From Rubrivivax sp. (GTDB lineage Bacteria > Pseudomonadota > Gammaproteobacteria > Burkholderiales > Burkholderiaceae_C), in contig JALHPY010000005.1 of assembly GCA_022842305.1 (NCBI GenBank), positions 1 to 64,000 of the forward strand: DNA of 64,000 nucleotides, written 5' to 3'. Both the position numbers and the translations under genes were made by a program. A model generated the notes under the pieces. It ran no database searches and had not been told where the DNA came from. It saw nothing but the letters and a program-made list of their open reading frames with translations. Each line of letters starts with the position of its first letter. Position 1 is the first letter of the stretch. Of the stretch, positions 39,399 through 58,926 are shown piece after piece.

Positions 39399-39411
39399 AC
39401 GGAGCCAAGAC

Positions 39412-42368: not shown

Positions 42369-42378
42369 GACGCATGCA

Positions 42379-42396
42379 GGGGCACCGAAGTGCCCC
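42379..42396. terminator. Hairpin between convergent sigZ and PEP-CTERM genes
   Basis: A perfect 7 bp stem GGGGCAC-cgaa-GTGCCCC with a stable tetraloop, 9 bp beyond the PEP-CTERM stop on the minus strand. No T tract on either side; a bidirectional terminator or mRNA end structure is likely. Confidence 0.5.
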
Positions 42397-42404
42397 GGGT
42401 CATG

Positions 42405-43028
42405 TCAACTCGGACGACGACGAATGGTTGACAGCCCGAGAAGGGCCAGGCCGACGAGGGCCAGGGTGGCAGGCTCCGGCACTTGCGTGATGAACGGAGG
42501 ACCCTGCTGCGTGAAGGAGCAGTTCACCGACAAGCCCCCACCGCCCGACTGGTTGCAGTTGAGCAGCATGCCATCGGCGGCAGAGAAGCCGTTGGGGCCG
42601 GTAACCGTCCCCATGAAGCTCAAGTTCAGAAAGTCAGGACCCGCGCTGCCAGCCGTGACGGATGTGAACAGGGCCGTGTACAAGCCCTCCGAGCCACTGG
42701 CGCCTTCATTGCCAGTGGTGAACGTCTTGGTCAGGTCAATGGCGGTGGTCGAGCCGATGCTGTAGTTGATGACGGTTTGGGACAGGAAGACGGGCATCCC
42801 CAGAAACGAACCGGCGTCGTCCGTGAAGGGGGGCGTGTTGCCCACGGTGTTTGTCGCGTACGTCGCATTGCCGAAATTGAGCGCGGTGGAAGTCCCGAGC
42901 GAGCTGCCCACGTAGGTGAAGGTACCGCTGGGGACGAAGCCGAAATTCACCTGCGTGGCGGCAGCCTGTGCCGCGCCAGCAGATACGAGTGCAGCCGCGA
43001 CGGCTGCGTACAGTAGGACCTTTTTCAT
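42405..43028 (-). CDS. PEP-CTERM sorting-domain protein inside the arsenic island
   Basis: A 207-residue secreted protein: signal peptide (LLYAAVAAALVSAGAAQAA), a Thr/Ser/Gly/Asn-rich body with little charge, and the C-terminal signal VPEPATLALVGLALLGLSTI followed by RRRPS. Good ribosome site (agaaggaagatgtt). It interrupts the arsenic genes and is convergent with sigZ. The body has no recognised domain; its exosortase is encoded elsewhere. Confidence 0.88.
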   Translation of the reverse strand: MKKVLLYAAVAAALVSAGAAQAAATQVNFGFVPSGTFTYVGSSLGTSTALNFGNATYATNTVGNTPPFTDDAGSFLGMPVFLSQTVINYSIGSTTAIDLTKTFTTGNEGASGSEGLYTALFTSVTAGSAGPDFLNLSFMGTVTGPNGFSAADGMLLNCNQSGGGGLSVNCSFTQQGPPFITQVPEPATLALVGLALLGLSTIRRRPS

Positions 43029-43860: not shown

Positions 43861-44141
43861 ATCGATAACGCTACCCTGAACACATTCTGGAATGACTGAT
43901 GGCGCGGATCATGCCGAGCCGGTGTCTTTTGCTCTGTTCGGTAACCCACATTGTCAGTCTCACTAGAACGGAAAGCGGGGGGCGATGGGGTCGGCGCATG
44001 GTGATGCCAGCGGGCATGGATGGAGCCGCTTGCTCGAAGCCCGCGCGAACCGACAGCGGGCCGCGGAACCCTGCCAAGACGACGCACCCGGTCCTGCATC
44101 CTTTTCGACCCTTCTTCGTCTCCACCAGCAGAGGTGAAGAA

Positions 44142-45194
44142 ATGGCCGAAGCGAGCCTGTCCCAACGCACGCTGCAACTGCCCCGGCTCTACCCACGAGG
44201 CTTTCTGCTCGTGGCCGCGGTGGCGTGGTGGCTGCTGTACCAGGCGCTGGCCCCGGCTTCCGAGGCGTTGGTGGCCGCGCTGCCGGTGGACCGCGCCAGC
44301 CACCTGGGGGGTGCGCTGCAGTTCTTCCTGTACGACACGCCCAAGGTGTTGCTGCTGCTGACCCTGGTGGTGTTCGTGATGGGCATGGTGAACTCGTACT
44401 TCACCCCCGAGCGCACCCGTGCCCTGCTGGCGGGCAGGTCCGAAGGCGTGGCCAACGTCATGGCCGCCAGCCTGGGCATCGTCACGCCGTTCTGTTCTTG
44501 CTCGGCCGTGCCGCTGTTCATCGGCTTTGTGCAGGCCGGTGTGCCCCTGGGCGTGACGTTCTCGTTCCTGATCTCGGCACCGATGGTCAACGAGGTGGCG
44601 CTGGCGCTGCTGTTCGGCCTGTTCGGCTGGAAGATCGCCGCGCTGTACCTGGGCCTGGGCCTGACGGTGGCCATCGTCGCCGGTTGGGTCATCGGCCGGC
44701 TGAAGATGGAAGCCCACCTGGAGGACTGGGTGCGCGACATGCCCCGGGTGGCCGCTGCGGCCGGCGAGAGCGGCCTGACGCTGCAGGAACGCATGCAAGC
44801 GGGCTTCGCCAGCGTGCGCGAGATCGTCGGCAAGGTCTGGCCCTACATCCTGGTGGGCATCGCCATCGGCGCGGCCATCCACGGCTGGGTGCCGCAGGAC
44901 TTCATGGCCTCGTTCATGGGCAAGGACGCCTGGTGGTCGGTGCCGCTGGCGGTGCTGTTGGGTGTGCCCATGTACACCAACGCCGCGGGCGTGATCCCCA
45001 TCGTGCAGGCACTGCTGGCCAAGGGCGCGGCGCTGGGCACCGTGCTGGCCTTCATGATGAGCGTGATCGCGCTCTCGCTGCCCGAGATGATCATCCTGCG
45101 CAAGGTGCTCAAGCTGCGCCTGATCGCCACCTTCGTGGGTGTCGTGGCCACCGGCATCCTGATCGTGGGCTTCGTGTTCAACGCGGTGCTGTAA
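44142..45194 (+). CDS. arsP: Permease of the ArsP/UPF0718 (DUF318) family
   Basis: A 350-residue membrane protein with about eight helices. The hallmark TPFCSCSAVPLFIGF (Cys118 and Cys120) and the matching second-half region GVPMYTNAAGVIPIVQALL are present. ArsP members export trivalent organoarsenicals such as methylarsenite, which would suit an ArsM producer; other UPF0718 permeases have unknown substrates, so the arsenic assignment rests on context. The start at 44142 begins the conserved chain and has a ribosome site (agaggtgaaga). Confidence 0.75.
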   Translation: MAEASLSQRTLQLPRLYPRGFLLVAAVAWWLLYQALAPASEALVAALPVDRASHLGGALQFFLYDTPKVLLLLTLVVFVMGMVNSYFTPERTRALLAGRSEGVANVMAASLGIVTPFCSCSAVPLFIGFVQAGVPLGVTFSFLISAPMVNEVALALLFGLFGWKIAALYLGLGLTVAIVAGWVIGRLKMEAHLEDWVRDMPRVAAAAGESGLTLQERMQAGFASVREIVGKVWPYILVGIAIGAAIHGWVPQDFMASFMGKDAWWSVPLAVLLGVPMYTNAAGVIPIVQALLAKGAALGTVLAFMMSVIALSLPEMIILRKVLKLRLIATFVGVVATGILIVGFVFNAVL

Positions 45195-45239
45195 CGCGCA
45201 ACGCCAGTCTTCCACTTCAAGCCATTTCAAGGAGAGAAC

Positions 45240-45473
45240 ATGGACATCAAGGTACTGGGCACCGGTTGTGCCAACTGCAAGACGACGATGGCGCTGATCG
45301 AACAGCTGGCGCAGGCCAAGGGCGTGCCCGTGACGCTGAGCAAGGTCGAAGAGCTGCGCGAGATCATGGGCTATGGCGTGATGAGCACGCCCGGCGTCGT
45401 CATCGATGGCAAGGTGGTGCACGCCGGTGGCGTGCCCAGCCGCGACAAGATCGAGAAGTGGCTGGCCGCCTGA
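45240..45473 (+). CDS. Mini-thioredoxin (redox-active disulfide protein type)
   Basis: A 77-residue thioredoxin-fold protein with the active pair Cys10-x2-Cys13 (GTGCANCKTT) and the cis-Pro loop GVMSTPGVVIDG. These very small thioredoxins are usually encoded right after UPF0718 permeases, as here (46 bp gap, ribosome site aaggagagaac). It may reduce a permease Cys or carry a thiol-bound metalloid; not tested for this family as far as I know. Confidence 0.88.
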   Translation: MDIKVLGTGCANCKTTMALIEQLAQAKGVPVTLSKVEELREIMGYGVMSTPGVVIDGKVVHAGGVPSRDKIEKWLAA

Positions 45474-45501
45474 ACCCCACACCCGCAACCAGGAACGCCC
45501 C

Positions 45502-45915
45502 ATGAACGCCCGTGTCGAACTGCCCGCCGCCCGCGAGGTCTGCCCCACCACCACCCGCCGCCTGATCGGCGAAGGCGCCTTGCTGGTGGACGTGCGCGAA
45601 CTGGATGAAGTGGCCCGGGTCGCCTTCGATGTACCGGGTGTGCTGTTCATGCCCATGTCCGAGCTGGAGCAGTGCTACGCCGAACTGCCGCGCGACCGGC
45701 AACTGGTGCTGGTGTGCGCCGTGGGCGAACGCAGCCTGAAGGCCACCTACTTTCTGATGTACCACGGCTACACGCAGGTCGCCAACATGCAAGGCGGCAT
45801 CATGAAGTGGGCGCGCAAAGGCTTCCCCATCAAGGGCCAGGCGCCGGCTGAGGTGCCGGCCACCGGTGGCTGCTGCAGCAGCGCGGCGCCTGGCAAGAAC
45901 TCCTGCTGCGGATGA
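45502..45915 (+). CDS. Rhodanese-like protein with Cys-rich tail
   Basis: A 137-residue single-domain rhodanese. The active-site loop is Cys72-AVGERS, with the conserved DVRE at residues 30-33 and a GGIMKWARKGFP end typical of the fold. The tail adds two vicinal Cys pairs (GGCCSS at 124-125 and SCCG at 135-136), which are absent from ordinary rhodaneses. The start at 45502 begins MNARVELP just after the mini-thioredoxin (29 bp). It could handle sulfane sulfur or bind As(III) through the tail (inference). Confidence 0.85.
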   Translation: MNARVELPAAREVCPTTTRRLIGEGALLVDVRELDEVARVAFDVPGVLFMPMSELEQCYAELPRDRQLVLVCAVGERSLKATYFLMYHGYTQVANMQGGIMKWARKGFPIKGQAPAEVPATGGCCSSAAPGKNSCCG

Positions 45916-45922
45916 GCTTGCC

Positions 45923-46399
45923 ATGCCGAAGAACCGCACGCTGGTCTGGATCGCCGCCGGCACCTTGAGCTTGGGCGCGGGCCTGAGCGTGGCGCTGGTC
46001 ACCCTGTCAACGCCGCTGGCGCCGCAGATCAGCGACCGGGCCACGGGGTCCCCAGGCGTGAACGGCGTGAGTGGCACCGACGCCGTGCAGACCGCACTGC
46101 GGGCCGGCAAGCCCACGTTGGTCGAGTTCGGCGCCAACGCGTGTGCAGCCTGCCGCGAGATGAAGCTCATCCTCAAAGACTTGCGGCAGACCGACGGCGA
46201 GCGCATCACCATCGTCGAGGTCGACCTGATGGCCCGGAAAGAGGCCGACTACATCTGGCGCTACCGCATCCAGCTCATGCCCACGCAGGTGTTCTTCGAC
46301 GCGCAGGGCCGCGAGACCAGCCGTCACATGGGCAAGATCTCGGCCGAGGACATCCTGGCTCGCCTGCAGGTCCCGGCCTGGACAGGTGGCCCGCAATGA
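45923..46399 (+). CDS. Membrane-anchored thioredoxin-like protein
   Basis: A 158-residue protein with an N-terminal anchor or signal (LVWIAAGTLSLGAGLSVALVTL) and a thioredoxin domain. The active-site pair is Cys74-AA-Cys77 (ANACAACREM) and the cis-Pro loop is RIQLMPTQVFFD. It lies on the periplasmic side if the anchor orientation is typical. Its stop overlaps the start of the CcdA-like gene (ATGA), so the pair likely passes electrons from cytoplasmic thioredoxin via CcdA to this protein. Confidence 0.85.
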   Translation: MPKNRTLVWIAAGTLSLGAGLSVALVTLSTPLAPQISDRATGSPGVNGVSGTDAVQTALRAGKPTLVEFGANACAACREMKLILKDLRQTDGERITIVEVDLMARKEADYIWRYRIQLMPTQVFFDAQGRETSRHMGKISAEDILARLQVPAWTGGPQ

Positions 46400-47097
46400 C
46401 CGGCGCCGAGGGCCTGGTGGCTGCCTTCGTGGGCGGCGTGCTGACCTCCGCCTCACCCTGCGTGCTGGCCGCCGTGCCCGTGGCCGTGGGCTACGTGGGG
46501 GGGCAGGCCGTCACGCCGCGTCGCGCCGGGTTCCTGGCCCTGGCCTTCGTGGCCGGCATGAACATCGCGCTGCTGGCCATGGGCCTGCTGGCCGCGCGTC
46601 TGGGGTTGCTGCTGGGTGCGCTGCCGGGGCCGTGGTCGGTGGCGGTGGGCGTGCTCGTCATCGTCGCGGCGCTGTGGTTGTGGCGTTCGCAGGCGGCGGT
46701 CTGCGGCATCCGGCTGCCGGCGGCCCTGCAGCAGCGCCTGGCCAGGGCCGGCGTCTGGGGCGCCCTGGTGCTGGGGGCCTTGATCGGCACCGTGATGAGC
46801 CCCTGCGCCACGCCGGCATTGGCCGCGGCGCTGGCGCTGGCGGGCTCTGGCAGTGCCTTCGGCGCTTCGATGTGGTGGGGCGCAGCGCTGCTGCTGGCCT
46901 ATGGCATCGGACACAGCGCCCTGCTGCTGGTGGCCGGCGCCATGCCGGGTGCGGCCACGGCCCTGATGCAGCGCTTTGCCTCGGCGCAGCCCTGGCTGCC
47001 GGGCCGGCGTGTCTTTGCCGCGCTGCTGGCCGTGGCCGGGCTGTGGTGGGTGGCGCAGGGTCTGGTGCCCGAATGGACCGCCGCGCTGACGGCATGA
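46396..47097 (+). CDS. CcdA/DsbD-type thiol-disulfide transporter
   Basis: A 233-residue membrane protein with about six helices and the two conserved Cys of the DsbD-beta/CcdA family: Cys22 (LTSASPCVLAAVP) and about Cys137 (GTVMSPCATPALA). It carries reducing equivalents across the inner membrane. Translationally coupled to the membrane-anchored thioredoxin upstream (ATGA overlap), which is its probable partner. Confidence 0.88.
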   Translation: MTGAEGLVAAFVGGVLTSASPCVLAAVPVAVGYVGGQAVTPRRAGFLALAFVAGMNIALLAMGLLAARLGLLLGALPGPWSVAVGVLVIVAALWLWRSQAAVCGIRLPAALQQRLARAGVWGALVLGALIGTVMSPCATPALAAALALAGSGSAFGASMWWGAALLLAYGIGHSALLLVAGAMPGAATALMQRFASAQPWLPGRRVFAALLAVAGLWWVAQGLVPEWTAALTA

Positions 47098-47146
47098 CAG
47101 TTGGTGACGCGGCCCTGGCTACGCATGGGCTGAGAATGCCCCTGCC

Positions 47147-48058
47147 ATGAGCGCCGGTCACGACCACAGCCACACCCCCGCGAACTTCAACGCGGCCTTC
47201 GGCATCGGCATCGCGCTGAACCTGGCCTTCGTCGCCATCGAGGCCTTCTACGGCTGGAAGGTCAACTCGCTGGCGTTGCTGGCGGATGCCGGCCACAACC
47301 TCAGCGACGTCATCGGCCTGGTGCTGGCCTGGGGCGGCGCCCTGGCCGGCCGGCTGCGCCCCGACGCGCGCCACACCTACGGCTGGAAGCGCGCCAGCAT
47401 CCTGGCCGCCTTCATCAACGCGCTGCTGCTGCTGGTGGCCATGGGCTCGCTGGCCTGGGAAGCGCTGCACCGGCTGCATTCTCCGCAGGCCATCGAAGGC
47501 GTGACCATCATGGTGGTGGCCGGCATCGGCATCTTCGTCAACACCGCCACGGCGCTGCTCTTCATGCGCGGCAGCCGGTCAGACCTGAACATCCGCGGCG
47601 CCTTCCTGCACATGGCGGCCGACGCGCTGGTCTCGGCCGGCGTGGTGGTGGCCGGCGGCCTGGCGCTGTGGTTTGGATGGACCTGGCTCGATCCGGTGGT
47701 CAGCCTGCTCATCGCTGCCGTCATCGTGGTCGGCACCTGGAGCCTGTTCAGGCAGTCGCTGCACCTGCTGTTCGACGGCGTGCCCGACAGTGTGGACCTG
47801 CCCGCGGTGCAGGCACTGCTGGCCGGCCTGCCGGGCGTGGCGCAGGTGACCGACCTGCACGTGTGGGCCATGGGCACCCGCGAGACCGCGCTCACCGCGC
47901 ACCTGGTGATGCCTGGGGGCGGCGGTGACGACGACTTCCTGCGCCATGCCACCGACGAACTGCACCAGCACTTCGAGATCCGCCACGTGACGCTGCAGAT
48001 CACGCGCGTGCCGCTGGGCAACGGCTGCGCGCCGGTGGCCACCGTCGGACGCAGTTAA
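47147..48058 (+). CDS. Cation diffusion facilitator (CzcD/ZitB-like)
   Basis: A 303-residue CDF exporter. Six helices, a His-rich N-terminus (HDHSH), the metal-site residues in LLADAGHNLSDVIG (helix 2) and FLHMAADALVSAG (helix 5), both HxxxD, and a cytoplasmic C-terminal domain (DLHVWAMG, LHQHFEIRHVTLQI) are typical of Zn2+/Cd2+/Co2+ exporters that use the proton gradient. It ends the permease-thioredoxin-rhodanese gene run, 50 bp after the CcdA-like gene. Confidence 0.92.
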   Translation: MSAGHDHSHTPANFNAAFGIGIALNLAFVAIEAFYGWKVNSLALLADAGHNLSDVIGLVLAWGGALAGRLRPDARHTYGWKRASILAAFINALLLLVAMGSLAWEALHRLHSPQAIEGVTIMVVAGIGIFVNTATALLFMRGSRSDLNIRGAFLHMAADALVSAGVVVAGGLALWFGWTWLDPVVSLLIAAVIVVGTWSLFRQSLHLLFDGVPDSVDLPAVQALLAGLPGVAQVTDLHVWAMGTRETALTAHLVMPGGGGDDDFLRHATDELHQHFEIRHVTLQITRVPLGNGCAPVATVGRS

Positions 48059-48402: not shown

Positions 48403-49758
48403 CTATTCGGCCTCCTGCCCCTTTGACGGGATCTGCAGCCGTTTCATCTTCTCCCACAGGTTCTTGCGGCTGATGCCCAGGTAGGCCGCGGTCTGCGCGA
48501 TCTGACCCTGGCAGCGCTGCAGCGCCTGCTGGATGTAGCCGCGTTCGCATTCGCGGATGTACTGGTCCAGCGTGCCGGCGGCCTGGGCCTGTGCCAGTTC
48601 GCCTTGCGGCCAGTTGTCGAACAAGGCATCGGGCTCGATGGCGGCGGCACCGCTCAGGATGCAGGCGCGTTCGATGCTGTGGCGCAGCTCGCGCAGGTTG
48701 CCGGGCCAGGGGTAGACCTGCAGCGCATGCTCGGCCTCGGCCGAGAGCGTGCGCCGTTCGCCGCCGTGCGCCACCGTGAACTCATCGAGGAACTGGCGCG
48801 CGAACCAGGCGATGTCCTGCGGCCGCTCGCGCAGCAGCGGGATGCGCAGGTGGATGACGTTGATGCGGTAGTACAGGTCTTCGCGAAACGTGCCGGCCTC
48901 GACGCGTGCGCGCAGGTCCTGGTTGGTGGCGCAGATCAGGCGCGCTTCCACCGCGATCGGTGCCTCGCCGCCCACGCGCACGATGCGCCGCTCCTGGATG
49001 GCGCGCAGCAGCTTCACCTGCATGGCCAGCGGCATGTCGCCGATCTCGTCCAGGAACAGCGTGCCGCCCTGGGCCTGCTCGAACACGCCCTTGCGCTGCT
49101 TGATGGCCCCGGTGAAGGCGCCCTTCTCGTGGCCGAACAGCTCGGCCTCGATCAGCGTCTCGGTGATGGCACCGCAGTTCACCGCCACGAAGGGCTGCTC
49201 CTGCCCCTTGGCGGCCAGGCCGTGCAGCTGCAGCGCCACGCGCTCCTTGCCCACGCCCGATTCGCCGGTGATCAGCACCGTGGCGGCATGCTCGGCCAGG
49301 CGCGGCAGCATGGCCGTGATCTTCTGCATGGCCGGCGACACGCCCAGCTGCAGGCCTTGCGCGCAGCGGCCACCCGGCGTGCGGTTGCGGCACAGCTGGC
49401 GCACCTTGAGCACCAGCTCGTCCAGGTCGAAGGGCTTGGTGATGTAGTCGGCGGCGCCGGCCTTCAGCAGCGCCACCGCGCGCTCGATCGAGCCCTGGCC
49501 GGTGATGAAGATGAAGGGCGGCAGCTCCAGCCCGGCGTCGTGCAGGCGCGCGTACAGCACCTCGCCGCTGAAGTCGGGCAGGCGGATGTCGCTGATCACC
49601 ACGTCGTAGCCCTTGCGCACTATGGCGCGGTGGGCCTCGGTGGCGCTGCGGTGCCAGTCGAGGTCGAAGTCCTCGAGCCGGAAGCGGTCGACCAGCGACT
49701 CGCCCATGATCTCGTCGTCTTCAACCAGACACAAGCGCGCTTTGGACTTGGGGTTCAT
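48403..49758 (-). CDS. arxR: Sigma-54-dependent response regulator ArxR
   Basis: A 451-residue NtrC-type activator. Receiver with phospho-Asp57 (VVISDIRLP); AAA+ domain with Walker A GESGVGKE, the sigma-54 contact loop GAFTGA within ELFGHEKGAFTGAIKQ, and Walker B TLFLDEIGD; C-terminal Fis-type HTH (AQTAAYLGISRKNLWEKMKR). Its gene overlaps the arxS 3' end by 38 bp. In known arx loci arxXSR lies divergently next to arxB2AB1CD, as here, so it most likely switches on the arxB2 promoter when ArxS is activated. Confidence 0.92.
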   Translation of the reverse strand: MNPKSKARLCLVEDDEIMGESLVDRFRLEDFDLDWHRSATEAHRAIVRKGYDVVISDIRLPDFSGEVLYARLHDAGLELPPFIFITGQGSIERAVALLKAGAADYITKPFDLDELVLKVRQLCRNRTPGGRCAQGLQLGVSPAMQKITAMLPRLAEHAATVLITGESGVGKERVALQLHGLAAKGQEQPFVAVNCGAITETLIEAELFGHEKGAFTGAIKQRKGVFEQAQGGTLFLDEIGDMPLAMQVKLLRAIQERRIVRVGGEAPIAVEARLICATNQDLRARVEAGTFREDLYYRINVIHLRIPLLRERPQDIAWFARQFLDEFTVAHGGERRTLSAEAEHALQVYPWPGNLRELRHSIERACILSGAAAIEPDALFDNWPQGELAQAQAAGTLDQYIRECERGYIQQALQRCQGQIAQTAAYLGISRKNLWEKMKRLQIPSKGQEAE

Positions 49759-51211
49759 CGCTTCTCTTCAGGGGCAGTTCGACGCTGAACACGGTGTGTC
49801 CGGGTTCGCTGCTGGCGCGGATGCTGCCGCCCAGCTGTTGCACGATCTGGTAGGTGACCCACAGGCCCAGGCCGTGGCCTTCGCGGCTGAGCAGCGAGAA
49901 GGGCTCGAACAGGTACTGCAGCTTGTCGGCGGGGATGTGCTCGCCCTCGTTGCTGACCACGATGCTCAGGCGCTGATCCTGCAACGCCGTGTGGCATTGC
50001 ACCCGGCCGCCCTGGCCCACGGCGTGTACCGCGTTGAGCAGCAGGTTGATGAGGATCTGCCGCGTCGGCGTGGACGGCAGCGGCAGCGGCGCGTCTATGC
50101 CGTTGTGCCAGTTCAGCTGCACCGCCTTGGCCTGCGCATCGGCCAGCACCAGCGTGCGCGTGTCCTCGACGTCCTGGTGGGTGAGGGCGTGGCTTTCGAC
50201 GCGCGCCTCGACCAGCAGTGCGGCCACGGTCTCGCGGATCTGGTGCAGGCCGCGCTCGATCAGCGACATCGTTCGGGTGCTCAGCGGGTCGCTGCTGCCA
50301 TGGCGCTTGAAGGTGCTGATGGCATTGAGCATGCCGCCCAGCGGATTGTTGATCTCGTGCGCGATGCCGGCGGTCAGGCGGCCGATGGCGGCCAGGCGGT
50401 CCGACGCGATCATCTGCCGCTCGAGCACCTCCTTTTCGCGCAGCCCGGCCAGCATGCGCTGGAACTCCAGCCCCAGGCGGCCGATCTCGTCGCGGCCGCG
50501 GTAGCGGGGCACGTAGTCCAGCTTGCCCGGCAACCGCGGGCCGACCTGGCCCATGGCGCCGGCCAGGTCTACCAGCGGCTGCGCGACGAGCCGCCCGAAC
50601 CACCAGCCGGCGGGCAGCAGCAGCGCCAGCACGCCGGCCGTGACCAGGGCCGCGCGCTGCGCCAGCGCGATGAAGCGCGGCTTGAACACCGCGCCTGAGT
50701 AGCCCATCACCAGCGTGCCCAGTTCGACCCCGTCGGACAGGATGGGCAGCACGATGTACAGCTTGCCCGAGGCCCCCGCCACCAGGGCGGTCGGCTCACC
50801 ACCGTGCGCGTCGGCCACGGCCTTCTGCACGCTGGCGTAGTCGGGGTCTATGCGAGCCGGGTCGGCCAGCATGGGGTATTCGGTGGGCCGGGTCGAGACA
50901 TAGATCATGTGCTCGGCATCCAGCAGCATCACCACCTCGGCCGCCTGCGCTGCGGCATCGCCGCCGGCGCTGTGGTACGGCGCGCTGATGATCTCGTAGG
51001 CGCGCCAGGCGTCGTCGTGCACGATGGGTTCGACCAGCGTCTTGGCCAGCACGCGGGCCACGCCCGCCGAATGCCCGATCAGGTCGCGCCGCAGTTCGTC
51101 GCGCTCGCTCAGCACCAGCGCCGCCGTCAGCAGCACGGCCGTGATGAGCACCAGCAGCGTGATGCGCAGCGGCGTCTTGTAGACGAGGCTGAGGTCGCGC
51201 AGCCAGTTCAC
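49721..51211 (-). CDS. arxS: Sensor histidine kinase ArxS
   Basis: A 496-residue membrane kinase starting at a GTG (51211) that overlaps the arxX stop (GTGA). Two helices (about residues 14-34 and 188-206) bracket a periplasmic sensor of ~150 residues; then a HAMP-like linker, HisKA with phospho-His285 (IAHEINNPLGGML), and a HATPase domain (GHGLGLWVTYQIVQQLGG). The sensor part has no Cys, so arsenite is more likely sensed through ArxX. Confidence 0.92.
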   Translation of the reverse strand: MNWLRDLSLVYKTPLRITLLVLITAVLLTAALVLSERDELRRDLIGHSAGVARVLAKTLVEPIVHDDAWRAYEIISAPYHSAGGDAAAQAAEVVMLLDAEHMIYVSTRPTEYPMLADPARIDPDYASVQKAVADAHGGEPTALVAGASGKLYIVLPILSDGVELGTLVMGYSGAVFKPRFIALAQRAALVTAGVLALLLPAGWWFGRLVAQPLVDLAGAMGQVGPRLPGKLDYVPRYRGRDEIGRLGLEFQRMLAGLREKEVLERQMIASDRLAAIGRLTAGIAHEINNPLGGMLNAISTFKRHGSSDPLSTRTMSLIERGLHQIRETVAALLVEARVESHALTHQDVEDTRTLVLADAQAKAVQLNWHNGIDAPLPLPSTPTRQILINLLLNAVHAVGQGGRVQCHTALQDQRLSIVVSNEGEHIPADKLQYLFEPFSLLSREGHGLGLWVTYQIVQQLGGSIRASSEPGHTVFSVELPLKRSDEPQVQSALVSG

Positions 51212-52065
51212 GCGCCATCCACCAGGCGCGACATCGCCTGCACCCCGTCGTACAGCGCCGGGCTGCCGGCCGTGAAGCCATCGATGTTGAGTCGCCCCAG
51301 CAGCGCCCGGCCTTCGGCATCGGCGCCCATGCCCATCAGCACCGACTGCATGGCCGCGAAGTCGCCGCCGCTGACGCCCGTGCGCGCCACGAAGGGCGGA
51401 AAGCCGAAGGGCGGCGACTGCTCGGCGATGCGCGTGCGCGCGGTCAGCTCGGGGTGCAACTGGGCCAGCGTGTCCCACACATAGCCGTCCACCGCGCCGC
51501 CCTGGGCCAGGCCCACGCCCACCGCGTCGACCACCTTGCGGTGGCCCCAGGTGAAGAAGCTGCGCGCAAAGAAGGCGGTGGGTGACTCGCGCAGGCGCAT
51601 CAGCGAATGCACCGGGAACAGCCAGCCGGAGTTGGAGTCGGGGTCGGAGAACGCGAAGACCTTGGCACGCAGGTCGAGGATGGAACTTCTGACCTTGTCG
51701 CCTGCCGGCACGATCAGGTACGAGCGGTACAGCGGCTCGCCGCGGTACAGCGGCACCGCCAGCAGCTTCATGCTGCGGCGGTTGCGCACGAAGGGGTAGC
51801 CGCAGAGCCAGGCAAAGTCCAGCTGCCCCTGCTGCAGCAGCGCCACCACGTCGCGGTAGCTGCCGCGCTGCACAAACTGCACCGGCCGCTGCAGGCGCTG
51901 CTGCAGGTAGCTGCGCCAGAGGTTGACGAAGGCCACCTGGTTGTCCAGGAACACTGGCGTCAGCCCCACGCGCAGCGGCGCCACCGGGTCATCGGCACGC
52001 ACGTTGGCAGACCACGACAAGGGCAGCGTGCTGGCCAGGAAGGCTCTTCGGGTGGGCAGGCTCAT
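51208..52065 (-). CDS. arxX: Periplasmic arsenite-sensing binding protein ArxX
   Basis: A 285-residue protein of the phosphonate/phosphate-binding (PhnD-like) family, with a Tat-type signal (TRRAFLAST). The start at 52065 gives this signal; an upstream ATG at 52137 lacks one. Only one Cys occurs in the whole chain (Cys88, FAWLCGYPFV), in a position similar to the Cys of AioX that binds As(III) in aerobic arsenite-oxidase regulation. It should bind arsenite and signal to ArxS. First gene of the regulatory operon. Confidence 0.9.
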   Translation of the reverse strand: MSLPTRRAFLASTLPLSWSANVRADDPVAPLRVGLTPVFLDNQVAFVNLWRSYLQQRLQRPVQFVQRGSYRDVVALLQQGQLDFAWLCGYPFVRNRRSMKLLAVPLYRGEPLYRSYLIVPAGDKVRSSILDLRAKVFAFSDPDSNSGWLFPVHSLMRLRESPTAFFARSFFTWGHRKVVDAVGVGLAQGGAVDGYVWDTLAQLHPELTARTRIAEQSPPFGFPPFVARTGVSGGDFAAMQSVLMGMGADAEGRALLGRLNIDGFTAGSPALYDGVQAMSRLVDGA

Positions 52066-52184
52066 CGCGGGGGCCGGGCGGCCGCAGGGCTTTCGCCCGG
52101 TGCCTGAAATTCTAGAAGTCGACCCCGGCACGCGCACTGCGCAACGACCCTCGGATGACGGCGCTGCGCAGCCTACGGCGTGAT

Positions 52185-52234
52185 GTCACCGTTCGGTAAC
52201 CGGTTGCGCCGCAGCAAAGTTACGGCTGCGTAAC
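52185..52234. promoter_or_regulatory. Two 16 bp inverted repeats, candidate ArxR binding sites
   Basis: Site 1, 52185-52200, GTCACC-gttc-GGTAAC; site 2, 52219-52234, GTTACG-gctg-CGTAAC (perfect). Both fit GTTAC-S-N4-S-GTAAC with one mismatch in site 1. Centres are 34 bp apart, about three helical turns. They lie about 70 and 100 bp upstream of the expected arxB2 start of transcription, where enhancer sites of sigma-54 activators usually lie. Confidence 0.5.
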
Positions 52235-52269
52235 CCCTCACCGACAGGTCTGCCCGTACTGCCCAGGTG

Positions 52270-52283
52270 GGCTAAGGGATTGC
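52270..52283 (+). promoter_or_regulatory. Candidate sigma-54 (-24/-12) promoter of arxB2
   Basis: GGC (52270-52272), a 7 bp spacer and TTGC (52280-52283) match the GGC-N7-TTGC core of sigma-54 promoters. Transcription would start near 52295, leaving a leader of about 23 bases before the arxB2 ATG at 52318. Fits with ArxR being a sigma-54 activator. Confidence 0.5.
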
Positions 52284-52317
52284 CCCAGATGGCCTGCTTC
52301 CTGCGGATAGACAGGGC

Positions 52318-53490
52318 ATGGCCCAGCCCGCGACCCTCAGCACCCACGATGCCCCGGCAACGTCGGCAGCGGCGCGGGGCGCGCGCTTCGAAGCGCTGGC
52401 CCCGCGTGCCGCAGTGTCCATCCGGCGCAGCGCCTGCCTGCGGCTGCGCCTGGCCTCGGCCACCTGTGGCGCCTGCGCGGACGTGTGCCCCACGCAGGCC
52501 CTGAGCGCCGGAGAGCAGCAGTTCGAGCTGAGCGGCAACTGCACCGGCTGCGGCCGCTGCCAGACGGTCTGCCCGAGTTCGGCGCTGGCGGTGGAAGGCT
52601 TCGACGACGCCCCGGTCACGGCCGCGCCGGGCGCGTTGACGATCGAGTGCTGGCGCACCCCCGCAGGCAGCGGCATGCTGCGCCTGCCCTGCCTGGGCGG
52701 CCTGACCGCGGCGCGGCTGCTGAGCCTGTGCGCCGCCAACCCCGAGACCCGCGTGCAGCTGGTCGACCGCGGCTGGTGCGGCGCCTGCGCCAGCGGCGGC
52801 AGCGGCACACACCCGGCACGCGCCGTGGTCGAGCGCGCAGCCGCCTGGCTGGCCGAAGCCGGTGTGCCCGCTGCGCTGCGACCCGCCTTCGTGGCACCGG
52901 CCACGGCAGGCCCCGCCACCGCTGCCATGGACCCCATGCAGCAGCAAGGCCGCGCCCGGCGCGGCTTCTTCGCTGCGCTGGCACAACCGGTGCGCGCGCC
53001 GCAGCCCAGTGTTTGCCTGCCCGCGCACAGCGAAGCCGCGAGCCAGCGCCAGCAAGGCCTGGCGGCGCTGCAAGCCCTGGTGGCGCGGCATGGCGGGCGC
53101 ATGCCGGCCGCGCTGTACCCCCGCCTGCAGGCCGGCCCGTCCTGCCAGGGCCACCGCGTGTGCGCTGCCGCCTGCCCCACCGGTGCCCTGGTGCGTTGGC
53201 GCGACGACGCCCACCAGCGCATGGGCATAGCCTTTGACAACGAGCACTGCATCGCCTGCGGCCACTGCGTCGAAGTCTGCCCCGAGCAGGCGCTTCAGCT
53301 GCAGCTGGGCGGTGGCGCCGCCGGCGCAGGCCGCCGCGCGCTCAGCACTTTCGAGCAACGCGCCTGCCCCGACTGCGGCACGCGCTTCGCATCCCGTGCA
53401 GAAGAAGAACACACGCAGTGCCCGCGCTGCCGCAAGTCGGCCGTGCTGGCGCGCTCTGCATTCCAGACCTTGTTCGGCGCAAGAACCTAA
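52318..53490 (+). CDS. arxB2: Iron-sulfur protein ArxB2 of the arsenite oxidase locus
   Basis: A 390-residue cytoplasmic ferredoxin-type protein. Cys sets: 40-x9-50-x2-53-x3-57 (CGACADVCP), 75-x2-78-x2-81-x3-85 (CTGCGRCQTVCP), a later CIACGHCVEVCP set with a preceding CAAACP, and a C-terminal zinc-ribbon-like pair CPDC ... CPRC. It holds several [4Fe-4S] clusters. The homologous gene opens known arx operons; its exact job (electron transfer or maturation) is not established. Confidence 0.88.
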   Translation: MAQPATLSTHDAPATSAAARGARFEALAPRAAVSIRRSACLRLRLASATCGACADVCPTQALSAGEQQFELSGNCTGCGRCQTVCPSSALAVEGFDDAPVTAAPGALTIECWRTPAGSGMLRLPCLGGLTAARLLSLCAANPETRVQLVDRGWCGACASGGSGTHPARAVVERAAAWLAEAGVPAALRPAFVAPATAGPATAAMDPMQQQGRARRGFFAALAQPVRAPQPSVCLPAHSEAASQRQQGLAALQALVARHGGRMPAALYPRLQAGPSCQGHRVCAAACPTGALVRWRDDAHQRMGIAFDNEHCIACGHCVEVCPEQALQLQLGGGAAGAGRRALSTFEQRACPDCGTRFASRAEEEHTQCPRCRKSAVLARSAFQTLFGART

Positions 53491-53531
53491 AGCCCGGGGA
53501 CCGGGCCGATACCACCCCAAGAGGAGCATCG

Positions 53532-56036
53532 ATGAGCATTCTGAAAACGATCACGACACGGCGGCGCTTCGTCCAGGCCAGCGGCGCGGCCGGCGCCGCG
53601 GTGGGCGTCGGGCACCTGACCGGCCTGACCACCTCGTCGCAGGCACAGACCACGGCGCCCGCCGCTGCGCCCGCGGCTGCGGCCGGTGACGGCAAGACCG
53701 TCGTCACCAAGAGCATCTGCGCGCAGTGCCCGGCGCGCTGCGGCATCGATGTCTACACCACCAATGGCCACGTGCATTCGATCTACGGCGCCGCCAACCA
53801 CCCCATCGCCAACGGCAAGGGCTGCCCGAAGATGCACCTGGGCACCTACATCCTCTACGACCCGGACCGCTTCAAGGGCCCGATGAAGCGCACCAACCCG
53901 CAGAAGGGGCGCGACCAGGACCCGAAGTTCGTACCCATCAAGTGGGACGAGGCCCTGCAGATCGTGGCCGACCGTCTGAACACCCTGCGCGACAAGGGTG
54001 AGTCGCACCGCTTCGCGCTGTTCTACGGGCGTGGCTGGGGGGCCTCTTGTGCCGGCCTGCAGGGCACCTTCGGCAAGCTCTACGGCTCGCCCAACGTCGC
54101 CATCGGCCATGCGTCGATCTGCGCCACCGGTTCCCAGGCTGCCAAGTCGGCGGTGGACGGAAACGGCTCCTACAACTCGTACGACTACAAGAACGCCAAC
54201 AACCTGCTGATGTTCGGCTGCAACTTCCTCGAAGCCTTCCGCCCCTACAACAACAACCTGCAGGTCTGGGGCCACATCCGCGGCGAGAAGACCGTCAAGA
54301 CGCGCGTCACCTATGTCGACGTTCACATGAACACGACCGCCGCCGCGGCGGACCGCGCGCTGTTGCTGAAGCCGGGCACCGACGGTGCGCTGGCGTTGTC
54401 GATTGCCCATGTCATCCTGACCAACGGCCTGTGGGACAGGGACTTCGTCGGCAACTTCAAGGACGGCGTCAACCAGTTCAAGGCGGGCGCCACCATCGAC
54501 CCGGCCGCGTTCACCGAGAAGTGGACCAAGGGCCTGATCGAGTGGTGGAACACCGAGCTCAAGGACCGCACCCCCAAGTGGGCCGAAGGCGTGACCACCA
54601 TTCCCGCCGGGCAGATCATCGACACCGCGATGGAGTTCGGCAAGACGCGGCCGTCGATAGCGCTCATGGAGCGCGGCGCCCACACCCACAGCAACGGCAT
54701 CTACAACGCCATGGCGATCCATTCGCTCAACGCGCTGGTGGGGTCGATGTTTGCCGAAGGCGGGCTGGGCTACCAGCAGGGCCCGTCTTATGGCGACAGG
54801 CCCGTGAAGGATGGCGACTACATGGACGACTATGCCAAGTCGCCCGACCGCAAGAAGCCGCGCATCGACCTTGCCGGCCACGAGGATGGCTACCTGATGG
54901 CCGGCACCATGATCCAGGAAGCGGGGCAGAACCACAACGCCGGCAAGCCCTACAAGCTCGACACGGCGATGTTCTATTACACCAACCCGGTGATGTCGTG
55001 CCCGGACACCAAGTCCTGGGAAGAGGCGCTCAAGACCATGTACGTCATCGACACCTCGCCCTTCCCCGGCGAGACGGCGTGGATGGCCGACCTGATCCTG
55101 CCCGACCACACCTACCTCGAACGCCTGCAGGACGCGCCGACCTACCCGTTCCAGGGCTACCCGATGACGCAGTTGCGCACGCCGGCTGTCAAGCCGGTGC
55201 ACGACACCAAGTACTACGGCGACGTGCTGATCGAGATTGGCAAGCGCATCAAGGGGCCGATGGGCGAGTACTACAAGGCGCTCAACAACACCGAGAACGT
55301 GCTGCGCCACCTGGCCAAGGGCTTCGAGGCCGACCCCGGCGACAACGGCGTCAAGGACTTCGACAGCTGGAAGAAGGAAGGCGTCTGGTTCAAGAAGCCC
55401 TACGCCTACCGCCAGATCCGCGGCGCGTTCTTCAAGTGGGACAAGGCCGCCCAGTCCTACAGCGTGCCGATGAGCGATGAGGAAGTGAAGAAGGACCTGC
55501 TCAAGACCGACTCGGGCAAGTTCGAGTTCGCGTCCTCCAAGCTGCTGGGCAAGAAGGCCTGGATCCTGGCCAAGGTGCCCGGCCGCAACCCGGACAAGAT
55601 GCACCTCCCGCACTGGGAGGAGCCCAAGTACACCGGTGGCGGCGACGTCCACTACATCACGCCCAAGACCGCTATGCACGCCGAAGGCCGCGGCGCCAAC
55701 CTGCCGCATGCGATCGCGCTCAACCAGCCGACCGCCGGCGGCCGCAAGCAGAACTTCATCGAGATCCATCCCAGCTATGCCAAGGGCAAGGGCATCTCGA
55801 ATGGCGACCGGGTGAAGATCAAGTCAGCCGTGGGCGAGGCCTTCGCCGTGGCGCGGATCTCCGAACTGACCCGGCCCGATGTGGTGGTGATCCCCTTCGG
55901 CCAGGGCCGCTGGGCGATGGGCCGCTGGGCCAAGGACCGCGGAACCCATACCGACCAGGTGATCGCGCAGCAGTCCGATCGCATCTCGGGCATGGCCAAC
56001 TTCTACTCGGCCAAGGTCACGGTCGAAAAAGCATAA
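53532..56036 (+). CDS. arxA: Anaerobic arsenite oxidase catalytic subunit ArxA
   Basis: A periplasmic molybdopterin enzyme of 834 residues. Start at 53532 has a ribosome site (aagaggagcatcg) and a Tat signal (TTRRRFVQASGAAG). The [4Fe-4S] motif is Cys63-x2-Cys66-x3-Cys70-x27-Cys98. GRGWG at 166-170 matches the ArxA motif, where ArrA has RGRY. HASIC (193-197) probably gives the Mo-ligand Cys197. It oxidises As(III) to As(V), passing electrons to ArxB1/ArxC. Some ArxA also act as arsenate reductases in vitro, so direction in vivo is inferred from the family. Confidence 0.94.
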   Translation: MSILKTITTRRRFVQASGAAGAAVGVGHLTGLTTSSQAQTTAPAAAPAAAAGDGKTVVTKSICAQCPARCGIDVYTTNGHVHSIYGAANHPIANGKGCPKMHLGTYILYDPDRFKGPMKRTNPQKGRDQDPKFVPIKWDEALQIVADRLNTLRDKGESHRFALFYGRGWGASCAGLQGTFGKLYGSPNVAIGHASICATGSQAAKSAVDGNGSYNSYDYKNANNLLMFGCNFLEAFRPYNNNLQVWGHIRGEKTVKTRVTYVDVHMNTTAAAADRALLLKPGTDGALALSIAHVILTNGLWDRDFVGNFKDGVNQFKAGATIDPAAFTEKWTKGLIEWWNTELKDRTPKWAEGVTTIPAGQIIDTAMEFGKTRPSIALMERGAHTHSNGIYNAMAIHSLNALVGSMFAEGGLGYQQGPSYGDRPVKDGDYMDDYAKSPDRKKPRIDLAGHEDGYLMAGTMIQEAGQNHNAGKPYKLDTAMFYYTNPVMSCPDTKSWEEALKTMYVIDTSPFPGETAWMADLILPDHTYLERLQDAPTYPFQGYPMTQLRTPAVKPVHDTKYYGDVLIEIGKRIKGPMGEYYKALNNTENVLRHLAKGFEADPGDNGVKDFDSWKKEGVWFKKPYAYRQIRGAFFKWDKAAQSYSVPMSDEEVKKDLLKTDSGKFEFASSKLLGKKAWILAKVPGRNPDKMHLPHWEEPKYTGGGDVHYITPKTAMHAEGRGANLPHAIALNQPTAGGRKQNFIEIHPSYAKGKGISNGDRVKIKSAVGEAFAVARISELTRPDVVVIPFGQGRWAMGRWAKDRGTHTDQVIAQQSDRISGMANFYSAKVTVEKA

Positions 56037-56048
56037 GGAGACACGAAC

Positions 56049-56807
56049 ATGGCTAAGTGGGGAATGGTCATCGACCTCGAGAAGTGCACCGGCTGTCAGG
56101 CCTGCAGCACGGCCTGCCAGATGGAAAACAACCGTCTGCCCGGCGAGAACTACCAGGACGTCCTGTTCTACACCGAGGGCAAGCAGCCTTCGCCGACGCT
56201 GGCCTGGTTCCCGCGGCCGTGCATGCAGTGCGAGGAACCCTCGTGCATGCACGTCTGCCCGACCAAGGCGACCTACAAGACCGAAGACGGCGTGGTGCTG
56301 ATCGACTGGAACAAGTGCATCGGCTGCAAGTACTGCATGATCGCCTGCCCCTACGGCGTGCGCTTCTACACCGACGAGAAGCCGCTGGTCGAGCCCAACC
56401 TCAAGACGGTGTTCAAGGGCGAGGGCGACCTGTCCTGGAACCCGCCCTTCAAGGGCCCGCAGCAGGACAACAGCAAGGGCATCGGCATCCAGCCCAGCGG
56501 CGTGGTCTCGAAGTGCACCTTCTGCTACCACAAGGTGAGCAAGGCGCCCAAGGGCACGCCCGATCTGGACGAGAGCGATCCCGCGCTGGTGGAATTCGTT
56601 CCGGCCTGCGTGCGCACCTGCGCCCCCAAGGCCCGCTACTTCGGCGACCTGGACAACCCCAGCAGCCATGTCAACCAGCTGATCTCGGCCAAGAAGGGCA
56701 CGCGGCTGCTCGACCACACCGGCAACAAGCCGCAGGTGTACTACCTGACGGGCGCCGGTGCCGCCGGCGGTGCGATTCCGTCCAACCGTTCCGACAAGAA
56801 GGCCTGA
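56049..56807 (+). CDS. arxB1: Arsenite oxidase iron-sulfur subunit ArxB1
   Basis: A 252-residue DmsB/NrfC-type electron-transfer subunit without its own signal; it would be exported with ArxA through Tat. Four Cys sets: 13-x2-16-x2-19-x3-23 (CTGCQACSTAC), CMQCEEPSCMHVC, CIGCKYCMIAC and CTFCYH with CVRTC, for four [4Fe-4S] clusters. Starts 12 bp after arxA with a ribosome site (taaggagacacgaac). Confidence 0.93.
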   Translation: MAKWGMVIDLEKCTGCQACSTACQMENNRLPGENYQDVLFYTEGKQPSPTLAWFPRPCMQCEEPSCMHVCPTKATYKTEDGVVLIDWNKCIGCKYCMIACPYGVRFYTDEKPLVEPNLKTVFKGEGDLSWNPPFKGPQQDNSKGIGIQPSGVVSKCTFCYHKVSKAPKGTPDLDESDPALVEFVPACVRTCAPKARYFGDLDNPSSHVNQLISAKKGTRLLDHTGNKPQVYYLTGAGAAGGAIPSNRSDKKA

Positions 56808-56816
56808 GGAGGCAAC

Positions 56817-57944
56817 ATGACAACCCAAGCGCACATGAGCGGCACCGTCGGCCTGTTCTCGATGGTCGGCGTGGCGGGGCTGATCGCCACCTTCGGCTTC
56901 GTCCTGTACAGCCTGATGTCGCAGGGCCACGGCTCCTTCAACAGCGGCAGCGACGGCATCACCTGGGGCTTGCCGGTGGTCAACTACATCTACTTCGTGC
57001 TGATATCGGCCGGATTGACGATGTTCGCCTCGCTGGCGCTCACCTTTGGCAGCAAGGCGTTCTATCCCATCGCCAAGCGCTGCGTGTGGCTGTCGCTGGT
57101 GGGGCTGGCTGCCGGCTTCGCCTCGCTGGCGATGGAGATCGGCCACCCGTTCCGGATGCTGTGGGCCATCCCGCTGAGCTTCCAGATCCTGTCGCCGCTG
57201 AACTGGATGGGTGTGTTCTACATCGTGTTCGGCATCTTCGGCGTGCTGAAGTTCATCCGCCTGCACAACGAGGACTGGGACAGCGCCACCAGCAAGAAGG
57301 TGGGTGCCGTCGCCCTGGTGGCCGAACTGTTTGCTGCCTGCACGCTGGCCATGGCCTTCGGCGCGCTGGCCATGCGGCCGATGTGGTTCAGCCCGCTGGT
57401 GCCGGTGTACTTTCTGCTGACGGCGCTGTGCTCGGGCGGCGCGGTGGCGCTGCTGACCTGCTACCTGACCTACGGCAACGAGCAGGCCATGCCGGAAGGC
57501 GTGCGCAGGCTGGTCAACGGCCTGCTGCCCACGATCCTTGCCGCCGTGCTGGGCGTGACCATCATCATCGGTGCCTACCAGACCTTCATCGGCCTGTGGA
57601 GCAACGCCGACGGTCTGCAGGTGTGGGACCACATCGTCTCGACGCCCTGGTTCTGGATCGAGGTGGCCTCGATGCTGGGCGCGCTGTACCTGCTGCTGCA
57701 GCGCAAGGCGCTGATGGTGGCCGCTGGCCTGATCCTGCTGGGCATGTTCATCCACCGCTACGAGTTCGTCATTGGCGGCCAGATGGTGCCGCTGATGAAG
57801 GGCTCCTGGGTGCCCAGCCTGATCCCGTACACGCCATCGCTGACCGAGTGGGCGCTGACCGCCATGTCCTTCAGCATCGTGGCGGCGGGCTGGGCCCTGG
57901 GCGAGCAGTTCCTCAAGCTCGGCGCCACGCCCAAGGAGTCTTGA
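56817..57944 (+). CDS. arxC: Membrane anchor and quinone-interacting subunit ArxC
   Basis: A 375-residue NrfD/PsrC-family membrane protein with about nine helices (for example GLPVVNYIYFVLISAGLTMF; LLPTILAAVLGVTIIIGAYQTF; WIEVASMLGALYLLLQR). It anchors ArxAB1 to the periplasmic face and passes electrons to the quinone pool. It starts 9 bp after arxB1 with a ribosome site (tgaggaggcaac). The family is shared with PsrC, NrfD and TtrC; context decides the assignment. Confidence 0.92.
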   Translation: MTTQAHMSGTVGLFSMVGVAGLIATFGFVLYSLMSQGHGSFNSGSDGITWGLPVVNYIYFVLISAGLTMFASLALTFGSKAFYPIAKRCVWLSLVGLAAGFASLAMEIGHPFRMLWAIPLSFQILSPLNWMGVFYIVFGIFGVLKFIRLHNEDWDSATSKKVGAVALVAELFAACTLAMAFGALAMRPMWFSPLVPVYFLLTALCSGGAVALLTCYLTYGNEQAMPEGVRRLVNGLLPTILAAVLGVTIIIGAYQTFIGLWSNADGLQVWDHIVSTPWFWIEVASMLGALYLLLQRKALMVAAGLILLGMFIHRYEFVIGGQMVPLMKGSWVPSLIPYTPSLTEWALTAMSFSIVAAGWALGEQFLKLGATPKES

Positions 57945-58017
57945 CAGGCGCAGCGATCGAAGCAGGCGACCGGCCTGCGGTGCCCTCGGGCGCAGCAGGC
58001 CGGCCTTCGGTCAACCA

Positions 58018-58044
58018 GTGGGGTGGCGCGGCGCGTCACCCCAC
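58018..58044. other. 12 bp stem-loop between arxC and arxD
   Basis: GTGGGGTGGCGC (58018-58029), loop GGC, GCGTCACCCCAC (58033-58044): a 12 bp stem with one G-T wobble. No T tract follows. It sits in the 121 bp arxC-arxD gap, so it may stabilise the structural-gene mRNA or lower chaperone expression rather than end transcription. Confidence 0.6.
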
Positions 58045-58065
58045 GCCCTTATCAGATCGGCGACC

Positions 58066-58926
58066 ATGACCATGGATGCACGCAACGCGCAGTTCGACAC
58101 CGCAAGGGCCGACTTCTACCAATGCCTTGCCCGCGCCTTTCTGCCACCCATGGAAGCGGCGCACGCGCGCGCCATCCTGGGCGGCGACCTGAGCAGCGAC
58201 CTGGCCGATCTCGATGAGGAGCTCGGCTACGGCCTGGCGCGGGAGATCGCGCAGCTGCAATCCGAGCTGGATGCCATCGGCGATCCACAGACCCTGCTGG
58301 TGCTCTACAGCCAGCTCTTCCTGGCCCCGCCGGTGCCGGCGCGCATCAACGCCGGCATGTATCTCGACGGCGCCATGAACGGCGGCAGTGTCATGGCCAT
58401 GGAAGCGGACTACCGGGCCTGCGGTGTCGAGCGCGACCAGGCCTTTCACGATCTGCCGGACCATGTCTCGATGCAGCTCGAGTTTGTCGCCCTGCTGTAT
58501 TCGGCCCAGGCGCAACGTTTCAGCGGGGAGGCAGCCGCCGAGCCCTTGCCGGTGGACCCGGGGCACTTCCTGCACCGCTTCGCGTTGCAGTGGCTGGGGT
58601 CCTTCTGCGCCGACATGGCGCGCGCTGCGGCCACGCGGGAACTGCCGGCCAACCCCTACCTGCCGCTGGCGCAACTGCTGCACGAAGCCGCGCTGCGCGA
58701 TGCGCTGGCGCCCGAGCAGGACCCCAAGGCCGAGCGCAAGCGCAATGCCATCGAACAGGCCCGCGCCAAGTACGCTGCCCGCGGCATCAGCGCCGAGGAC
58801 ATGGACGTGATCAAGCGCAAGCTGCAGGAGCGCGGCCTGGCGACCGACCACTTGTCGGTGCCGGTGGACGAGCGCGACGGCGCGATGGGTCTGGCCAAGA
58901 AGAGCCTGCCCACGGCGCGCCGTTGA
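58066..58926 (+). CDS. arxD: TorD-family maturation chaperone ArxD
   Basis: A 286-residue all-helical chaperone (TorD/DmsD family): FYQCLARAFLPPMEA, LLVLYSQLFLAPPVPARINAG, EADYRACGV, LPDHVSMQLEFVALL are the typical pattern. It binds the ArxA Tat signal and helps Mo cofactor insertion. The start at 58066 fits the conserved N-terminus. A C-terminal extension of ~70 charged residues (RKRNAIEQARAKYAARG onward) is longer than in classic TorD. Confidence 0.9.
   Translation: MTMDARNAQFDTARADFYQCLARAFLPPMEAAHARAILGGDLSSDLADLDEELGYGLAREIAQLQSELDAIGDPQTLLVLYSQLFLAPPVPARINAGMYLDGAMNGGSVMAMEADYRACGVERDQAFHDLPDHVSMQLEFVALLYSAQAQRFSGEAAAEPLPVDPGHFLHRFALQWLGSFCADMARAAATRELPANPYLPLAQLLHEAALRDALAPEQDPKAERKRNAIEQARAKYAARGISAEDMDVIKRKLQERGLATDHLSVPVDERDGAMGLAKKSLPTARR

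Follow-up and report, generated by a model that had tools for sequence, protein, structure and literature searches.

An intact arx locus of typical arrangement in an arsenic gene island of Rubrivivax sp.

Organization of the arx locus

Positions 48403-58926 of a 64,000-nucleotide stretch from Rubrivivax sp. (contig JALHPY010000005.1 of assembly GCA_022842305.1, hereafter the window) contain eight arx genes, the gene set for anaerobic arsenite oxidation and its sensor system. All eight are intact according to the open reading frames and a Blast comparison of loci, and arxXSR is divergent from arxB2-A-B1-C-D. This bears out an earlier note on the sequence, which had reported eight arx genes in the known order and orientation; every frame is open. 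The locus boundaries of 48403-58926 given there are correct for the arx genes but too narrow, because the run of arsenic genes begins already at 36460. Three starts were refined, namely those of arxX (52065, ATG), arxS (51211, GTG, overlapping the arxX stop) and arxD (58066, ATG). The Pfam make-up of each protein is as expected for its role:

48403-49758, minus strand: arxR, 451 amino acids, NtrC-type response regulator with the GAFTGA loop at residue 213; Pfam Response_reg, Sigma54_activat and HTH_8
49721-51211, minus strand: arxS, 496 amino acids, membrane sensor histidine kinase; Pfam HAMP, HisKA and HATPase_c; H-box and GTG start checked
51208-52065, minus strand: arxX, 285 amino acids, predicted periplasmic arsenite-binding sensor; phosphonate-type binding protein by Pfam
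52318-53490, plus strand: arxB2, 390 amino acids, polyferredoxin; Pfam Fer4 families; homologues upstream of arxA in related loci
53532-56036, plus strand: arxA, 834 amino acids, molybdopterin catalytic subunit; Pfam molybdopterin oxidoreductase
56049-56807, plus strand: arxB1 (arxB), 252 amino acids, 4Fe-4S electron-transfer subunit by Pfam
56817-57944, plus strand: arxC, 375 amino acids, NrfD-type membrane subunit, predicted quinone partner; Pfam NrfD (1.9e-23)
58066-58926, plus strand: arxD, 286 amino acids, TorD-like chaperone; Pfam Nitrate_red_del

The gene order and content of the locus are not attributable to chance. Among 24 related loci compared by Blast (E values up to 1e-8), all eight genes are present in 17, and 15 of these are arranged as in the window, including L055 and L071, which are copies of one plasmid. 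The two deviating loci have arxXSR on the same strand (L054) or arxB2 downstream (L073). Blast found no arxB2 in L072 and no arxXSR in L067, L076 and L077, and contig ends truncate L010, L062 and L063.

Motifs, model scores and phylogeny of ArxA

ArxA has the twin-arginine leader MSILKTITTRRRFVQ, which was read by eye and not with a signal-peptide program. Its cluster motif, which starts at residue 63, is exactly C-x2-C-x3-C-x27-C, and GRGWG occupies residues 166-170. The motif reading agrees with the earlier description of an 834-residue protein with a twin-arginine translocation (Tat) signal, this cluster motif and GRGWG in place of RGRY. A twin-arginine leader, a 4Fe-4S motif and XGRGWG are stated as ArxA features in PMC6549141, which was read in excerpts, as were the other papers cited below. 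Among the NCBIfam models listed for ArxA, ArrA scored best (438.9 bits, cut-off 1600), and the scores for PhsA (262.1 bits, cut-off 694) and the AioA model TIGR02693 (25.3 bits, cut-off 359.05) also stayed below their cut-offs; none of the arx proteins exceeded any cut-off among the best 25 models listed per protein. Among solved structures, ArrA 6cz7 is nearest, and C197 of ArxA aligns with a cysteine of 6cz7, the Mo ligand.

For the phylogeny, homologues were collected from three genome draws, three named contigs, four plasmid records and two solved structures, leaving out 11 loci (the window's own copy, partial pieces and second pieces of the same genes). The tree comprises 42 rows and was calculated by a quick search with support from the Shimodaira-Hasegawa-like approximate likelihood ratio test (SH-aLRT) only; its named references are ArxA of Sulfuricella denitrificans skB26, ArrA 6cz7, Thermus PsrA 2vpw (N-terminal part only) and PhsA of E. 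coli, whereas ArxA proteins of strains MLHE-1 and PHS-1, other type strains and Azoarcus sp. CIB are not among its rows. All 25 GRGWG proteins, including those of the window and of skB26, are separated from the remaining rows by a branch with support of 100, and all 12 (R/K)GRY proteins, including 6cz7, form a separate branch, also with support of 100. The phylogeny suggested in the earlier note as a check therefore places ArxA with the GRGWG group, apart from ArrA and PsrA/PhsA. Five rows fall outside both groups, namely PhsA, Thermus PsrA, L018, L057 and L006, the last being a PhsA/PsrA-like protein from the window's own genome; a long-branch warning applies among these five and leaves the ArxA/ArrA split unaffected. 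The nearest rows to ArxA are L009 from a groundwater Rhodocyclales metagenome-assembled genome (MAG; 86% identity) and L019 from the same family as the window genome (77% in one comparison, 79% in another). With 834 amino acids and a position outside the nine-row skB26 clade, ArxA is not of the long-insertion kind (group 3 in the excerpts of PMC6549141), and its assignment within that scheme goes no further than this exclusion.

Since ArrA provides the nearest curated model and the nearest solved structure, the enzyme might be a respiratory arsenate reductase or work mainly in that direction. We consider this very unlikely, because 438.9 bits are far under the cut-off, GRGWG replaces RGRY, the tree split is clean, the regulator is of the sigma-54 type and ArxX is closer to AioX than to ArrX (see below); identity with ArrA was ruled out by motif, model score and tree. 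A polysulfide or thiosulfate reductase-type enzyme that acquired its oxyanion sensor from elsewhere would come from the same superfamily, the NrfD-type ArxC resembles PsrC, and the PhsA model does match with 262.1 bits. However, this score is well below 694, ArxA and ArrA share a branch that excludes PhsA and Thermus PsrA, and the neighbouring genes include ars genes and one for an AioX-like sensor, which makes such an enzyme extremely improbable; identity with PsrA/PhsA was ruled out by motif, model scores and tree.

The sensor protein ArxX

Among solved structures, ArxX matched AioX 6esk best (E value 1.4e-63), followed by ArrX (1.3e-34), and the phosphite and phosphonate binders PtxB, HtxB and PhnD gave weaker matches. 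The seven AioX pocket residues Y88, C106, Y131, S161, S163, H192 and D210 are all identical in ArxX. This residue list, with Cys106 as the arsenite-linked residue, has been described in PMC5908839, where ArxX of strain MLHE-1 was reported to bind arsenite with a dissociation constant of 311 nM. According to the same excerpts, ArrX keeps the AioX pocket residues, yet its ligand is arsenate; hence, the pocket alone is no proof of the ArxX ligand. The ranking of the structure matches, with AioX above ArrX, is the better argument, and it points to arsenite as the probable ligand of ArxX.

The shared control region

The gap of 252 base pairs (bp) between arxX and arxB2 contains two 16-bp palindromes and a sigma-54-like site:

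52185-52200, no strand: palindrome GTCACCGTTCGGTAAC, predicted ArxR site 1
52219-52234, no strand: palindrome GTTACGGCTGCGTAAC, predicted ArxR site 2, 34 bp from site 1
52290-52304, plus strand: sigma-54-like -24/-12 element TGGCCTGCTTCCTGC, compared by eye with the consensus TGGCACG-N4-TTGC

The sigma-54-like site puts the transcription start about at the annotated ATG of arxB2 (52318), thus arxB2 may start further in. The pattern GTNACSNNNNSGTNAC occurs three times in the window, where 0.07 occurrences are expected, the third being at 61852.

The palindromic pattern is concentrated in the control regions of related loci. Over 18 loci, not counting L073 and L072, GT.AC-N6-GT.AC gave 64 strand-hits in 515,282 strand-bases, 42 of them in the 9,280 strand-bases of control regions versus 22 in the remaining 506,002; because the pattern reads identically on both strands, the 42 strand-hits correspond to 21 sites. 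Of the 20 loci with arxXSR, 14 have at least one strict palindrome no more than 450 bp upstream of their first structural gene (L055 and L071 representing one plasmid), compared with none of the three loci with readable upstream sequence where no arxXSR was found; L010, which begins inside arxB2, was left out of both counts. Eight related loci have two sites at a spacing of 32 to 45 bp, compared to 34 bp in the window. As a separate observation, L055, L068, L071 and L074 (4/20 arxXSR loci, with one plasmid present twice) possess an extra strict palindrome some 300 bp into the first structural gene. The joint absence of detectable arxXSR and palindromes in L067, L076 and L077 parallels a report on aio in the excerpts of PMC3834237. 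Use of the palindrome as a genome-wide marker of an ArxR regulon was ruled out, with 20 sites versus 19 for a reversed control pattern, and the pair at 52185-52234 is the only entry standing out in the genome-wide palindrome list.

A sigma-54 promoter and an ArxR site in the shared arx region were reported in PMC5908839, and ArxR control of arx was called undemonstrated in the excerpts of two papers from 2019 (PMC6549141, PMC6683785). By analogy, the palindrome pair fits the known design. A narrow literature search, covering excerpts, met no description of such a pair for arx, and novelty is not claimed.

Phylogenetic histories of catalytic and regulatory genes

Trees were also calculated for concatenated ArxA+B1 (22 rows) and ArxX+S+R (19 rows), from which L071 was dropped as a copy of L055. 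In the A+B1 tree L009 is the partner of the window, with support of 100. The X+S+R data rejected this pair in the approximately unbiased test with a p-AU of 1.4e-4, a value that is optimistic because the pair was chosen after seeing the ArxA tree. Instead, the window joins L009+L058 there (support 91), hence the discord between both trees is shallow, with window, L009 and L058 kept together. A grouping of the window with L064+L065 was rejected by A+B1 (p-AU 2.4e-71) but not by X+S+R (0.285). Taken alone, the discord could stem from unequal rates. Identity to L009 at four-fold sites amounts to 0.65 for arxA, 0.63 for arxR and 0.52 for arxB2, with 0.42-0.46 expected from composition. It thus differs little from gene to gene and neither supports nor excludes an exchange of arxA-B1.

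Different phylogenies of arx regulators and catalytic subunits have already been reported (PMC5908839, in excerpts). It might be possible that arx loci are modular, such that a common operator grammar, consisting of two palindromes of the GTTAC-N6-GTAAC type at 32-45 bp spacing ahead of a sigma-54 promoter, allows the slowly evolving arxA-B1 core to be swapped between loci with differing sensor-regulator histories. We put this forward tentatively and regard it as rather doubtful.

The arsenic island and its flanks

The arx locus forms the right end of the arsenic gene run that starts at 36460. Its remaining parts and the gene following arxD are:

36460-41642, plus strand: arsR, arsM, arsC, acr3, arsD (39412-39801) and arsA, the resistance genes of this arsenic island
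43899-48058, plus strand: genes for a permease, thioredoxin, rhodanese, thioredoxin, a DsbD/CcdA-type protein and a cation diffusion facilitator (CDF) transporter; a similar module follows arxD on the Cereibacter plasmid pORIO3
58991-59692, plus strand: nitroreductase-family gene after arxD; Pfam Nitroreductase; homologues (35-36%) adjoin arxD in L059 and L126

The ArsR-type regulator, the arsenite methyltransferase ArsM, Acr3 and ArsA exceeded their NCBIfam cut-offs, ArsC stayed below its cut-off, and ArsD was matched by Pfam. Inside the island, positions 41649-43028 encode a sigma-70-family factor resembling those of extracytoplasmic function and a PEP-CTERM protein.

On the left flank, a block for a tripartite ATP-independent periplasmic (TRAP) transporter (TAtT-DctP-DctQM) recurs in five loci of genus mates (L120-L124), and on the right a choice-of-anchor gene recurs in four (L116-L119), in two of these with an acetyltransferase. 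The ars and arx genes of the window were not found beside the flank genes in these stretches, apart from one weak rhodanese match in L116. An empty site was sought in genus mates via the choice-of-anchor gene and the TRAP transporter, and no genome with both blocks joined was found. The pattern suggests that the island was likely inserted between the flank blocks.

In the genus mate G1174, an ArrA-type RGRY gene (3937-6528) and a full arx locus (from 9455 on) lie about 3 kb apart in L125, so that a single island may encode both arsenate reduction and arsenite oxidation. In G395, ArrA-type and ArxA-type genes are both present on different contigs.

Host genome and frequency of arx loci

The host assembly consists of 324 contigs and is 97% complete and 3% contaminated. 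It contains narG in two pieces at contig ends (L005 and a place on C79), the larger of which exceeds the cut-off of its model. The large subunit of ribulose-1,5-bisphosphate carboxylase/oxygenase (RuBisCO) is present; a RuBisCO-like protein was considered instead, since Pfam also matched the control Bacillus subtilis, and form II was settled by the NCBIfam RuBisCO model over its cut-off and the best solved match, 'Form II RubisCO'. No Photo_RC match for a photosynthetic reaction centre was found in the genome, whereas among 14 control genomes only Synechococcus matched, and phototrophic use of the locus was set aside. With narG and form II RuBisCO present and no reaction centre found, the electron partner in this host is probably nitrate and not light, and growth with light, offered as an option earlier, is unlikely here. 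Altogether 13 molybdopterin oxidoreductase places were found; the AioA model had no match among those scanned (limits E 1e-40 and 1e-60), and L129 and L130 were matched by no model at E 1e-60.

The host shares its order, for which the GTDB name is presumably Burkholderiales, with G1000, whose ArxA is that of S. denitrificans skB26 pSCD, in agreement with the proposed Burkholderiales host. Of 399 genomes sampled across the order, 14 have GRGWG homologues, and the corresponding figures are 6 of 399 for the family and 3 of 81 for the genus; the class draw gave 4 of 369 with the motif read and one partial match lacking that part, and the own genome is included in every draw. At the same limit, (R/K)GRY homologues were found in four more genomes of the order draw, five of the family's and seven of the genus's. 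Among Betaproteobacteria with arx, the excerpts of PMC6549141 (2019) count six cultured strains as well as seven MAGs. Hence, the statement that few arx loci are described in Burkholderiales was overstated. This is an ordinary arx locus, for which the earlier identification holds while the rarity claim does not.

Proposed function of the locus

Collectively, our data support a complete and intact arx locus of typical arrangement, and the bacterium can probably sense and oxidise arsenite without oxygen. Judged from its sequence, it is very likely a working locus under ArxXSR control. Periplasmic ArxX would bind arsenite via the conserved cysteine and activate the kinase ArxS, which would phosphorylate ArxR. 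ArxR is predicted to bind the paired palindromes and to drive the sigma-54 promoter, leading to expression of arxB2-A-B1-C-D. ArxD may help to load the molybdenum cofactor, and ArxA, presumably exported by the Tat system, would oxidise As(III) to As(V), the electrons being passed via ArxB1 and ArxC to quinone and then most likely to the nitrate reductase NarG. The adjoining ars genes would serve to expel and methylate arsenic that gets inside.

Several points weigh against this interpretation. A strict palindrome was not found within 450 bp upstream in 6 of the 20 arxXSR loci (L054, L058, L063, L070, L073 and L072), although L072 has two just past this limit. Eleven strict sites, including these two, lie elsewhere in the 20 loci, some within genes, single palindromes are unspecific at genome scale, as the 20 sites versus 19 control sites indicate, and the sigma-54-like pattern is present in 10 of 18 related control regions and not in the other eight. 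ArxA-type enzymes can act as arsenate reductases in vitro, so that the sequence does not fix the catalytic direction. The two narG pieces are not joined, and, given the 324 contigs and the contamination of the assembly, narG or RuBisCO could stem from a different organism.

An intact locus might also serve the detoxification of arsenite under anoxia instead of energy gain, which would be compatible with the assignment as arx enzyme. The adjoining arsR-arsM-arsC-acr3-arsD-arsA set and the heterotrophic Azoarcus sp. in PMC6683785 (in excerpts) are consistent with such a role. However, form II RuBisCO and narG would permit chemolithoautotrophic growth and ArxC is of the quinone-linked type; hence, we regard detoxification as a serious possibility without favouring it.

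The arx locus described here leaves the view of how arsenite oxidation works unchanged and is a good example of an already known system. A complete arx locus set in an arsenic island is thereby added for a large family of Betaproteobacteria; the genome concerned has nitrate reductase and form II RuBisCO, and no photosystem was found in it. Moreover, the conserved palindrome pair offers a concrete handle for a direct test of ArxR control of arx.

Comparison with known systems

The locus on plasmid pSCD of S. denitrificans skB26 (PMC6549141, in excerpts) has the same eight genes in the same divergent order with one control-region palindrome; its ArxA differs by a long insertion (938 amino acids by annotated coordinates versus 834) and belongs to a separate supported subclade. 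Azoarcus sp. CIB, a betaproteobacterium grown with nitrate, has eight arx genes in two divergent operons within one island with ars, according to the excerpts of PMC6683785. On pORIO3 of Cereibacter azotoformans ORIO (L054), all eight genes, adjoining arsA, ACR3 and arsC and a similar permease-thioredoxin-rhodanese-thioredoxin-CcdA-CDF module are shared with the window (CcdA by annotation only, the rest matched), whereas arxXSR lies upstream on the same strand, the palindrome was not found and ArxA is 63% identical. The Rhodocyclales MAG contig JACRIY010000067 (L009) contains the closest ArxA (86%), an ArxB1 with 91% identity and the same gene order, but its ArxR (56%), ArxS (47%) and ArxB2 (33%) are much less similar, and the 22 kb read gave no match to the window's ars genes. 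Finally, the aioXSR/aioBA system (PMC3834237, PMC6011840, both in excerpts) resembles the window in its binding protein, kinase and sigma-54 activator and in two tandem palindrome-like repeats 100-200 nucleotides upstream, while its target is the distantly related AioBA oxidase.

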